From positions 1 through 64,000 of the forward strand of contig CANHVY010000009.1 of the NCBI GenBank assembly GCA_947464185.1: a stretch of DNA of 64,000 bases, given 5' to 3'. The translations under genes were made by a program, and so were the position numbers. Positions within the stretch are counted from its first letter, which is position 1; each line of letters opens with the position of its first letter. The notes under the pieces are model-generated. The model had not been told where the DNA came from and ran no database searches. It worked only from the letters and a program-made list of their open reading frames with translations. Below are positions 38,874 to 41,937 of the stretch, piece after piece. This DNA is from Burkholderiales bacterium (lineage in GTDB: Bacteria > Pseudomonadota > Gammaproteobacteria > Burkholderiales > Burkholderiaceae_C).

Positions 38874-39215
38874 TCAGGCGGCACTCATGTCCATGCGCTT
38901 GCCGGCCTGGTGGTGGTGGTCCTGCACCTTGTCCTTGTGGCGCACCACCTGCCGATCCAGCTTGTCCATCAACTGGTCGATGGCGGCATACAAGTCTTCG
39001 TGGGATTGCTCGACGAAGATATCGCGGCCCTTGACGTGCAGGGTGACCTCGGCCTTCTGCCGCCGCTCCTTTTCCTTCATGTTCTCCACTGTCAGCAGCA
39101 CGCTGACATCTACCACCTGGTCGAAGTGGCGCGTGACCCGCTCCAACTTTGTGAGCACATACTCTCTCAGAGACGGCGTGATTTCAAGATGATGGCCGCT
39201 GATCGTGAGATTCAT
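38874..39215 (-). CDS. hpf: Ribosome hibernation promoting factor HPF (short form)
   Basis: Binds the 30S decoding site and silences ribosomes in stationary phase. 113 residues with a single S30Ae/YfiA domain ([36 protein letters not shown]) and a basic His-rich tail. The length places it between short HPF and YfiA; the long-form dimerisation domain is missing. Start ATG 39215 has AGGAGG 6-7 bases upstream. The group hpf-ptsN-hprK normally follows rpoN, but here rpoN is at 4513-6039. Confidence 0.95.
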
Positions 39216-39388
39216 CCAGTCCTCCTGGGGTCTAGGGAAGTGGCAACACAGTCCCCCGGCGGCCAACACGATCCCGGCGGCCGGGCAGATTGAGTTTGCG
39301 CCTGTTCAGGCCCGCAGGCAAGATGGTCCCCCGTCCAGGGTGTTGCTTTGCCGGATCGGGCCGTGCGCCACCGGACCCTGGCCGACTG

Positions 39389-39429
39389 ACGTACCGGCGA
39401 GAACCGCGGTACGTGGCCCCTGCTATATT
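39389..39429 (+). promoter_or_regulatory. Predicted trp promoter with upstream dyad
   Basis: A TATATT (39424-39429) matches the sigma-70 -10 element and lies 7 bases before the trpL ATG, so transcription would begin at or within a base or two of that ATG. No good -35 is visible. Instead a perfect dyad, ACGTACC (39389-39395) and GGTACGT (39408-39414), covers the -35 zone and may bind a regulator. Confidence 0.5.
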
Positions 39430-39436
39430 GATCCCC

Positions 39437-39511
39437 ATGTCCTCGGTCACACCCTCGCCAGTTGCCGTCCCGGGCCCTCAGGGCCGGGGAGCCTGGCCCT
39501 GGCGACGCTGA
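39437..39511 (+). CDS. trpL: trp leader peptide TrpL (predicted, leaderless)
   Basis: A 24-codon open frame ending in TGA at 39509-39511, 140 bases upstream of trpE. It begins MSSVTPSPVAV and ends GAWPWRR, with Trp codons 20 and 22 (39494-39496 and 39500-39502). Tryptophan is otherwise rare, so two Trp at the end of a small frame directly before trpE is the signature of an attenuator peptide. There is no Shine-Dalgarno sequence. The -10 TATATT lies 7 bases upstream, so the mRNA probably starts at AUG. This matches what is known of Sinorhizobium meliloti trpL, whose mRNA also starts at the AUG. The Trp codons lie inside competing RNA pairings. It is not detected by ordinary gene finders because of its size. 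Confidence 0.65.
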   Translation: MSSVTPSPVAVPGPQGRGAWPWRR

Positions 39512-39624
39512 ACGCGCCGACCTGGGACGCCTGACGGTGTCCTTGCGCATCGGCTGCTCCTGTCCCGCCAGGGCTGCGAAGTGGCCTGATTTCCCCACGC
39601 ACCCACGCTGCGCTTGTGCAGCCC
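39479..39624 (+). promoter_or_regulatory. Candidate trp attenuator with competing hairpins
   Basis: Segments that exclude one another are visible in the trpE leader. (a) CAGGGCC (39479-39485) pairs with GGCCCTG (39495-39501). (b) GCCCTGGCG (39496-39504, spanning the second Trp codon) pairs with CGCCAGGGC (39566-39574). (c) GGGCTGC (39571-39577) pairs with GCAGCCC (39618-39624). (d) A weak stem around 39569-39588 is followed by ATTTCC and might terminate. All of a, b and c are perfect. No classic U-run terminator is evident, so the outcome might be Rho-dependent termination or control of trpE translation. The rest of the 436-base hpf-trpE gap shows no other gene. Confidence 0.5.
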
Positions 39625-39651
39625 GTTGTGGTGCCTGCCAGGACTGAACCC

Positions 39652-41169
39652 GTGATCACCGAACTCGAATTCAAGAGCCTTGCCGCCGAAGGCTTCAACC
39701 GCATTCCCCTCATCGCCGAGGCCTTTGCCGACCTCGAAACCCCGCTGTCGCTGTACCTGAAGCTCGCCGGCGGCAGCCGCCACAGTTTCCTGCTGGAGTC
39801 GGTGGTGGGCGGCGAGCGCTTCGGGCGCTACTCCTTCATCGGGTTGCCGGCCCGCACGCTGCTGCGCGCCACGGGGCAGCGCAGCGAGATCGTCACCGAC
39901 GGCCGTGTGGTGGAGACGCACGAGGGCAACCCGCTGGACTTCATCGCCGAGGTCCAGGCCCGCTTCAAGCCGGCCCTGCGGCCGGGGCTGCCGCGGTTCT
40001 GTGGCGGCCTGGCCGGCTACTTCGGCTACGAGACCGTGCGCTTCATCGAGAAGAAGCTGGACGGCGTGCGCAAGCCGGGGGGCATCGGCACGCCCGACAT
40101 CCAGCTGCTGCAGACCGAGGAGCTGGCCGTCATCGACAACCTGTCCGGGCGCCTGTACCTCATCGTCTGGGCCGATCCGCGTACGCCCGACGCCTGGTTC
40201 AACGGCAAGAAGCGCCTGGCCGAGCTGATCGACAAGCTGCGCTTTTCCGTCACCGCCCCGCAGGTCAAGCGCGGGCCCAGCTACGCCGTGGAGCGCGAGT
40301 TCTCCAAGGCCGCGTTCGAGGCCGCAGTGGAGCGGGGCAAGGCCTACATCGCCGCGGGCGACTGCATGCAGATCGTGCTGGGCCAGCGCCTGAAGAAGCG
40401 CTACACCGAGAGCCCGCTGTCGCTGTACCGGGCACTGCGCTCGCTCAACCCCAGCCCCTACATGTACTACTACGACATGGGGGACTTCCAGATCGTGGGC
40501 TCCTCGCCTGAGATCCTGGTGCGCCAGGAGTTGGCGGCCACCATTCCCGGCGCGGCCAGCTCGGCCGGCGCGGGTGAGAAGCCCGGCCAGATCATCACCG
40601 TGCGGCCCATCGCCGGCACGCGTCCGCGCGGGGCCACGCCTGAGCAGGACAAGGCCCTGGAGGCCGAACTCCTGGCCGACCCCAAGGAGCGCGCCGAGCA
40701 CGTGATGCTGATCGACCTGGCGCGCAACGACATCGGCCGCATCGCCCAGACCGGCAGCGTCAAGGTCACCGAGGCCTTCGGTATCGAGCGCTACTCGCAT
40801 GTGATGCACATCGTCAGCAACGTCGAGGGCCGCTTGAAGCCCGGCCTGTCGGCGCTGGACGTGCTGCGCGCCAGCTTCCCGGCGGGCACGCTCAGCGGCG
40901 CGCCCAAGATCCGCGCCATGCAGATCATCGACGAGCTCGAGCCCGTGGAGCGCGGCATCTACGGCGGCGCCGTGGGCTACCTCAGCTTTGCCGGCGACAT
41001 GGACGTGGCCATCGCCATCCGCACCGGCGTGGTGAAGAACCAGACCCTGTACGTGCAGGCCGGCGCCGGCGTGGTGGCCGACTCGGTGCCTGAGCTCGAG
41101 TGGAAGGAAACCGAAGCCAAGGCGCGCGCGGTGCTGCGCGCGGCGGAGCTGGTGGAAGAGGGGTTCTGA
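39652..41169 (+). CDS. trpE: Anthranilate synthase component I
   Basis: Converts chorismate to anthranilate, the first step of tryptophan synthesis, with ammonia supplied by TrpG. 505 residues from GTG 39652 (ITELEFKSLAAEG), which has AGGA about 8 bases upstream; a GTG at 39616 is less likely. The N-terminal feedback-inhibition domain includes LLES (Trp site), and the chorismate-binding domain has the conserved motifs RPIAGTRPRG, DLARNDIGR, SNVEGRL and LSGAPKIRAMQIIDELE. trpG, trpD and trpC do not follow, unlike many Burkholderiales. Regulation by attenuation is predicted from the leader. Confidence 0.96.
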   Translation: MITELEFKSLAAEGFNRIPLIAEAFADLETPLSLYLKLAGGSRHSFLLESVVGGERFGRYSFIGLPARTLLRATGQRSEIVTDGRVVETHEGNPLDFIAEVQARFKPALRPGLPRFCGGLAGYFGYETVRFIEKKLDGVRKPGGIGTPDIQLLQTEELAVIDNLSGRLYLIVWADPRTPDAWFNGKKRLAELIDKLRFSVTAPQVKRGPSYAVEREFSKAAFEAAVERGKAYIAAGDCMQIVLGQRLKKRYTESPLSLYRALRSLNPSPYMYYYDMGDFQIVGSSPEILVRQELAATIPGAASSAGAGEKPGQIITVRPIAGTRPRGATPEQDKALEAELLADPKERAEHVMLIDLARNDIGRIAQTGSVKVTEAFGIERYSHVMHIVSNVEGRLKPGLSALDVLRASFPAGTLSGAPKIRAMQIIDELEPVERGIYGGAVGYLSFAGDMDVAIAIRTGVVKNQTLYVQAGAGVVADSVPELEWKETEAKARAVLRAAELVEEGF

Positions 41170-41281: not shown

Positions 41282-41467
41282 TCAAGCCGCTCTGATCCAG
41301 TTCTCCGTCAGCAACCCCGGCACCCTCTCGAACTCGCCGAGGTTGTTGGTCACGAGCGCGAGCCCTTCGCTGCGAGCATGGGCGGCGATGTGCAGGTCGT
41401 TGACGCCAATCGGCCGGCGCTTGATAACGTAGACGACGAAGTGGGTGTCGAGCAGGTACTTCAGCAT
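41282..41467 (-). pseudogene. VapC-type PIN-domain toxin with internal deletion
   Basis: A 61-residue remnant. It starts as a normal VapC (MLKYLLDTHFVVYVIKRRP) and jumps directly to the normal C-terminal third (IGVNDLHIAAHARSEGLAL, VTNNLGEFERVPGLLTENW). Family members have about 130 residues, so about 70 central residues, including the second catalytic Glu, are missing in frame. First-strand Asp (LDT) and the C-terminal Asp (NDLH) and TNN remain. It has probably lost RNase activity, although it could still bind VapB. Located 13 bases after vapB on the same strand. Confidence 0.8.
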
Positions 41468-41480
41468 CGCATGCACCCTG

Positions 41481-41714
41481 TCAGAGGGCTTCGCGTGCAG
41501 GCTGTTGCTGAGAGGCGCGCTCCGCCAAGAAGTCCTCGGACGCCTTCGGCCCGTTCAGAAAGAACTCGTCCCAGGTGTGACCCACTCGCGAGATGATGCG
41601 GTCCACGCTGCGGGCGCGCACCTGGACCTTCTTCACGCCTTCTGGCAGCCGCACATCAGCCGGTAGACGGACTGCCTGGGAGCGGTTGATCGTGAAGACG
41701 GAGGTGATGCTCAT
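41481..41714 (-). CDS. vapB: VapB-type antitoxin
   Basis: 77-residue antitoxin. The N-terminal AbrB/SpoVT-like swapped-hairpin DNA-binding domain (TSVFTINRSQAVRLPADVRLP) is followed by a C-terminal toxin-neutralising tail (WDEFFLNGPKASEDFLAER). Start ATG 41714; the frame continues 22 codons upstream through its own promoter region. It appears intact although its toxin is deleted. VapB usually represses its own operon; two exact 10-base direct repeats lie 19 bases upstream. Confidence 0.85.
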   Translation of the reverse strand: MSITSVFTINRSQAVRLPADVRLPEGVKKVQVRARSVDRIISRVGHTWDEFFLNGPKASEDFLAERASQQQPAREAL

Positions 41715-41732
41715 GGGCAAACTTCTGCTGGA

Positions 41733-41755
41733 ATATGGCGGGAGCATATGGCGGG
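41733..41755. promoter_or_regulatory. Direct repeats upstream of vapB (candidate operator)
   Basis: ATATGGCGGG occurs at 41733-41742 and again at 41746-41755, 13 bases apart, in the expected promoter of vapB. Paired repeats next to a vapB start are typical VapB autoregulation sites; this is inferred from position. Confidence 0.5.
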
Positions 41756-41937
41756 CGCGAAATCGGGTGGACTGGTTCACTTTGAACTGGGTGAAGGCAG
41801 CGCCGAGGCCTGAGGGATGTCCCGCTCGGGCTGTTCAGGCTCGTGCCTGCCCTTCGTAACATCGCCTCTCGCGCATCACCCATGGTCCATGGGCGAGTTG
41901 CATCCTACTAAGGCTCCCGGTGTTGGCCGGATCGATC

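Follow-up and report, generated by a model that had tools for sequence, protein, structure and literature searches.

The trpE locus and its putative leader

The DNA analysed here (the window) is a stretch of 64,000 nucleotides on contig C9 of the 4.17 Mb genome of a Rubrivivax-like bacterium, of which Rubrivivax gelatinosus IM 151 is a close relative. It carries trpE, encoding anthranilate synthase component I, on the plus strand at 39652..41169; the gene starts with GTG, its product matches Pfam families PF00425 and PF04715, and a Shine-Dalgarno (SD)-like AGGA is located at 39640..39643 (plus strand). The trpG and trpD genes of the source genome lie away from trpE on a separate contig (C74). 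Upstream of trpE, on the opposite strand, are genes for an S30AE (HPF-like) protein, a PTS EIIA protein and HPr kinase. Two short ORFs at 41282-41780 on the minus strand, between trpE and an arginase-family gene, resemble by eye an antitoxin/PIN-domain pair.

A leader ORF of 24 codons, trpL (MSSVTPSPVAVPGPQGRGAWPWRR), occupies 39437..39511 of the plus strand and ends 140 nt before the start of trpE. Its two Trp codons, at 39494-39496 and 39500-39502, form a Trp-Pro-Trp motif shortly before the stop codon (39509-39511). A putative extended −10 element of the trpL-trpE transcript, TGCTATATT (39421..39429, plus strand), with its TG at 39421-39422 and TATATT at 39424-39429, is followed after 7 nt by the ATG at 39437, and no SD-like sequence precedes this start in the window. 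This arrangement, a 24-codon frame with Trp-Pro-Trp near its end and no ribosome-binding site 7 nt after TATATT, was described in the initial annotation, and all of its coordinates proved correct. A scan of 39200-39700 for a TTGACA/TATAAT consensus promoter gave none and no good −35 box; extended −10 promoters can work without a −35 box. The mRNA probably starts at or next to the trpL ATG, with its predicted 5′ end at or adjoining the A. A perfect 8-bp palindrome, ACGTACCG-N10-CGGTACGT, lies just 5′ of the −10 box at 39389-39414 and could be an operator, although it was not found by eye in the upstream sequences of the relatives inspected.

No counterpart of the trpE leaders of this lineage was found in Rfam, Pfam or NCBIfam. 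Rfam release 15 gave no match in the window at the gathering threshold, and a search of 11 leaders from relatives at E values up to 1 returned a single, unrelated microRNA match. No family was found when four leader peptides were searched against each of the Pfam and NCBIfam libraries, a weak test with queries so short.

Conservation of the leader ORF

TrpE was sought in 61 genomes and matched in 59. Among the 37 same-genus genomes, the trpE leader could be read in 32; in the others TrpE had no match (G015, G034) or a weak match only (G036), the locus began within trpE (L003 of G011), or trpE was split across contigs, with the Trp-codon element just above it (G020). All 32 readable leaders contain the pattern AW.W in frame, as AWPW in 29, AWRW in two (L009, L018) and AWCW in one (L057). 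A 20-base Trp-codon element, CGGGGAGCNTGGCNCTGGCG, was found in 40 of 60 same-genus genomes, one copy in each, with no match to the reversed pattern as control; the positions of the 40 matches were compared with trpE for part of them. Some of the other 20 genomes, part of which were read, carry one-base variants (e.g. L009, L011, L029).

The leader is also present outside the genus. Among the best 80 of at least 591 named betaproteobacterial trpE loci, which include two duplicates of same-genus loci (L063 = L028, L065 = L056), 64 have a Trp leader ORF (AW.W or W[RG].WR), 57 of them with AW.W, and no such leader was found in the remaining 16 (L094, L105, L109, L111, L118, L121-L123, L125-L127, L129, L131-L134). 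Six of these 16 are labelled Polynucleobacter, and there trpE, as judged by eye, closely follows another gene; for L109 the upstream sequence is just 116 bases long. L094 does contain the Trp-codon element, one base short, so that the Trp codons are off the leader frame, by natural loss or sequence error. The common leader type is MFIHxxxxTGxxDRGAWPWRK, and 40 leaders start with MF[IVMLF][HQ]. A strict script run on 24 loci, one for each of 24 further families of the order, found W.WR or terminal W.W leaders in seven, against 0.06 expected by shuffling; four further related forms (L042, L043, L048, L053) and single W-R leaders (L040, L050) were recognized by eye. The untranslated part of the leader varies widely in length and sequence among relatives.

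On these counts the trpL ORF is not a chance frame, since all 32 readable same-genus leaders keep AW.W in frame and 64 of the 80 named loci have a Trp leader. The unannotated trpL proposed before trpE is thus borne out. Absence of Trp codons from homologous leaders had been named in advance as grounds for rejecting it; the codons are present.

Promoter geometry of relatives' leaders

Leaders were found in 96 of 112 loci. Of these, 89 are of the AW.W type and all passed the promoter filter, giving 87 distinct leaders; the remaining seven (L119, L124, L128, L130, L136-L138) carry W motifs of other types and failed it. The 87 leaders start with ATG (84) or GTG (3). In 86 of 87 a TAnnnT-type box ends 6-11 nt 5′ of the start codon, compared with 2 of 87 for shuffled upstream sequence, a count that is partly so by construction because the filter used a similar pattern; a fairer statement is that none of the 89 AW.W leaders failed the filter. 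The distance from box to start is 6 nt in 20 leaders, 7 in 25, 8 in 8, 9 in 19, 10 in 13 and 11 in one. The one leader without a TAnnnT-type box, L006, has TAACAT; a TG extension is present in 67 of 87. SD-like tetramers precede 1 of the 87 leader ORFs versus 65 of the 87 trpE genes. The leaderless character attributed to trpL is therefore upheld as promoter geometry, the 5′ ends themselves being predicted.

Constraint on the Trp-codon element

The conserved element of the window, CCGGGGAGCCTGGCCCTGGCGA (39484..39505, plus strand), contains both Trp codons and consists of nearly invariant bases. Codon choice in the 87 leaders was compared with that in the trpE genes of the named loci. The Arg codon near the Trp codons is CGG in 79 of 80 (background 11.8%); the Gly codon is GGA in 78 and GGG in 7 of 85 (background 2.8% and 8%); and the Pro codon is CCC or CCT in 76 of 76, CCG having a background of 49.5%. 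The Ala codon uses all four third bases, with GCG once only against a background of 31.6%. Since these choices are far from background, the element seems to be under a constraint beyond the need of the peptide, on RNA structure or on ribosome pace.

A 6-bp hairpin between 39484-39489 and 39497-39502 would account for part of this codon bias (position +5 is only C or T, and −7 is G in 86 of 87). It is not favoured in folding, with a mean pair probability of 0.19, a value above 0.5 in 16 of 87 leaders and 0.0 in the window leader, and is retained only as a possible structure. Folds of some Comamonadaceae subgroups, and of these only, showed a nested stem ACAGGUU/AGCCUGU enclosing the element, and an anchored covariation scan of the leaders gave no clear helix.

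A second Trp leader at detached trpG genes

In the source genome, a second Trp ORF, MSAIPPITAARSGWRWRKPSV, precedes trpG on contig C74 (L139), 7 nt after CATAAT. Thirty same-genus trpG loci were collected, and two (L144, L151) were set aside because their upstream sequence was too short. As read by eye, all 11 detached trpG genes have their own leaderless Trp leader of the MSAIRPITAARSGWRWRKPSA type, with CATAAT 6-7 nt before its start (GATAAT in L165, a leader with only one Trp that the script did not detect). In contrast, none of the 17 trpG genes within 109 bp 3′ of trpE has one, the lone script match (L149) lying inside trpE. The 28 loci are not independent events, since the genomes are related. 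trpE was not found in the genome that holds L163. The trpG leader element, TGGCRTTGGCGCAAGCCA, occurs in 19 of 60 genomes, one copy in each; intrinsic terminators were found in none of the 10 trpG leaders scanned, and no Trp leader was seen 5′ of trpB. The trpG comparison offers independent support for a putative Trp leader on trpE.

Structures between trpL and trpE

The initial annotation also described three perfect alternative pairings involving the Trp-codon region. Perfect inverted repeats do exist in 39437-39665, four of them, of 7, 7, 9 and 7 nt, but they are near chance and private to the window sequence: six 7-mers find a complement further downstream, where shuffled sequences give 2.6 (sd 2.0), and 9 of 100 shuffles reach 6. 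The sole standout is the 9-bp pairing of 39496..39504 (GCCCTGGCG, region 1 of the initial annotation) with 39566..39574 (CGCCAGGGC, region 2), both on the plus strand; 39571-39577 is also complementary to 39618-39624, and region 2 is not conserved. A mutually exclusive antiterminator pairing conserved in the 87 leaders was not found, the mean z of pairing between the motif and downstream sequence being −0.46.

No terminator was found in a scan of 39200-39700, and intrinsic terminators in the 87 trpE leaders (8, against 5.4 expected by shuffling) are not above chance. Because the pairings are private and near chance and a terminator is not seen, the pairing switch as originally drawn is unsupported.

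Structure prediction had been proposed as a check. The fold of the whole leader has a z of −1.42, with 11 of 200 shuffles as stable, and a 7-bp hairpin, GGACGCC-UGAC-GGUGUCC, was predicted 3′ of the leader ORF at 39525..39542 (plus strand). In relatives, local structure is mildly enriched around the leader stop, either at it or directly 3′ of it, with a mean z of −0.8 to −1.1. In 13 hand-picked leaders (12 distinct rows) showing a GCAC/GCGC-type hairpin, out of 49 numbered L067 or higher, all cells of the post-stop hairpin are paired and one pair is changed on both sides, a score matched by 18 of 500 shuffles; the covariation in this predicted hairpin is suggestive. Another short ORF, which overlaps the start of trpE, was considered and rejected, being open in some relatives only and having no conserved start.

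The untranslated trpE leader has a C-over-G skew that is significant against the DNA upstream of the promoter. However, the skew is larger in aroG leaders with intrinsic terminators (0.27, in 17 of 21) than in trpE leaders (0.12), so that it is no pointer to Rho. Rho termination of the trpE leader is possible.

Terminator-bearing leaders in the lineage

A near-identical scan found intrinsic terminators in all 21 same-genus aroG leaders and in five of nine from other families. Thus the scan is effective on the GC-rich sequence of this lineage, which is itself able to use intrinsic terminators. The same-genus aroG leaders are leaderless and abound in F and Y; almost every one also contains W, and TGCTACATT-like boxes stand 6-8 nt before their start. 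In the source genome, the leaderless aromatic leader MRLPASFCFAYFWISHRPAVGEASA and a strong intrinsic terminator lie 5′ of aroG (DAHP synthase) on contig C31 (L177:1225-1360), a layout common to all 21 same-genus loci. The aroG leader offers a built-in comparison, within the same genus, for a trpE control that would do without a terminator.

Terminators were also seen in front of some betaproteobacterial trpE genes. The leaders of the WWRWWR/WRGWR kind (L119, L124, L128, labelled Alcaligenaceae, L130, and L136, labelled Paenalcaligenes) resemble trpL in being W-rich ORFs before trpE, but an intrinsic terminator follows them and no promoter box was found at leaderless distance. For L119, L128 and L130 the script detected a hairpin and T6 in terminators of the form GCCCG..CGGGCTTTTTT, and these are apparently classical attenuators; the terminators of L124 and L136 were found by eye. 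Such leaders and the trpL of the window possibly descend from a common ancestral leader.

Possible mechanisms of trpE control

We consider it likely that a leaderless trpL regulates trpE by ribosome stalling and that its output is not a U-tract terminator. RNA polymerase would start at or adjoining the A of the trpL ATG, and the 5′-terminal AUG would be translated without a ribosome-binding site; leaderless translation is inferred from the conserved promoter geometry. With charged tRNA-Trp in short supply, the ribosome would slow at the two Trp codons and trpE would be expressed; when Trp is plentiful, it would complete the short ORF and most transcripts would give no TrpE. These Trp-sensing steps are drawn from the codon content, the target gene, the conservation and the trpG comparison, and it counts against them that the Trp codons are only two and non-adjacent and that 16 of the 80 named loci have no such leader in view. 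The output would be an early end of transcription that needs no U-tract, brought about by Rho or by a U-less hairpin near the leader stop. This is the weakest step of the scheme, and the case for it falls slightly short of the case against.

Three other readings differ in the output. A classical attenuator, in which 39496-39504, 39566-39574 and 39618-39624 form the switch, with termination at the hairpin 39607-39622 and the CCGTTGT after it, would draw on 9-bp and 7-bp perfect complements in the right order, on a motif-downstream duplex of z −2.86 in the window leader and on the U-run hairpins of L119, L128 and L130; as the window leader lacks a terminator-like site, the pairings are unconserved and terminators among the 87 leaders stay near expectation, we hold it to be quite unlikely. 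Translational control, in which the Trp-codon element would pair with the trpE ribosome-binding site whenever no stalled ribosome covers that element, is improbable too, if a little less so. Complementarity is good in some relatives (z −1.6 in L068, −2.7 in L084, −2.2 in L110) and local hairpins surround the trpE SD in Ramlibacter-like leaders, but over all 87 the mean z is −0.46, and the mean energy is weaker than that of other windows of the same leaders (−24.2 vs −25.7), for which reason such pairing was rejected as a general mechanism. Nor did the predicted accessibility of the trpE SD change with the ribosome at three positions (unpaired probability 0.397 released vs 0.398 stalled). Finally, the nascent peptide, the freed peptide or the RNA might be the effector, on the model of ribosome-arrest leaders or S. 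meliloti peTrpL/rnTrpL. The 40 MFIH-type leaders do keep their N-terminal residues while the codons vary (Phe TTC 30, TTT 10; His CAC 25, CAT 14), and 38 of the 40 have their first Trp at codon 17; the N-terminal half is variable within the window's own genus, however, the window peptide included, and we rate direct action as low as the classical switch.

The conserved ORF might also sense no Trp at all and merely aid translation initiation or mRNA stability, as the wide variation of the untranslated part would allow. This is very improbable, because both Trp codons are invariant in the 87 leaders (a set so selected) and in 32 of 32 same-genus leaders, and because a different second Trp leader stands at detached trpG genes only.

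Stalling on a leaderless trpL with a U-tract-free output thus remains our preferred reading, and the comparisons suggest that trpE control in this lineage is old, leaderless and without a classical terminator. We put forward, as a speculation and with some doubt, that the Rubrivivax/Comamonadaceae branch may have a distinct leaderless Trp leader built around an almost invariant RNA element, CCGGGGAGCNUGGCCYUGGCG, whose distance from the 5′ end is often fixed. Such a leader would control trpE and separately the detached trpG without an intrinsic terminator (by Rho, U-less termination or nascent peptide), despite the terminator-based leaderless attenuator on aroG. In any case the locus is a clean, cheap system for studying control of a downstream gene by ribosome stalling on a leaderless ORF.

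Relation to known Trp leaders

As in trpL-type leaders, a conserved Trp-codon ORF is found just 5′ of a trp biosynthetic gene; two other marks of the type, intrinsic terminators above chance frequency and a conserved antiterminator pairing, were not found in the trpE leaders. The trpL of E. coli has an SD-led ORF with adjacent Trp codons and an intrinsic terminator. The window trpL shares with it the Trp codons in a leader ORF before trp genes (PMC7298713) but is leaderless by geometry, and no terminator was found.

Leaderless transcripts have been reported in Burkholderia cenocepacia and Cupriavidus metallidurans, and the words trp and tryptophan are absent from the main texts of those studies. 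Trp attenuation is textbook knowledge, yet among the open-access papers listed none described it for this large betaproteobacterial group. The leaderless Trp leader as a kind is already known; what appears new is the lineage, the wide conservation, the link to detached trpG, the fixation at the RNA level and the missing terminator.

The initial annotation had named Sinorhizobium meliloti trpL, which reportedly has three Trp codons, as a parallel. That leader is described as a short Trp ORF before trpE with a transcript starting at the AUG, consecutive Trp codons and a transcription attenuator (PMC7298713). The layout is indeed alike, a short Trp ORF before trpE with an AUG-start transcript, the latter predicted here; but no counterpart of the run of Trp codons and the attenuator-terminated small RNA (rnTrpL, beside the peptide peTrpL) was found in the window leader, which comes from another lineage, has W-P-W and showed no U-run terminator, and the likeness is one of layout only.

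Leaderless Trp leaders, TrpL1 and TrpL2, are also described before the monocistronic trpE and trpS of Streptomyces lividans (PMC8079986). These belong to Actinobacteria, and TrpL1 differs in having WWW and a U-enriched stretch; here too the likeness is one of layout. TrpL2, with one Trp and hairpins described as lacking a U-rich stretch (PMC8079986), resembles the window leader in that respect.
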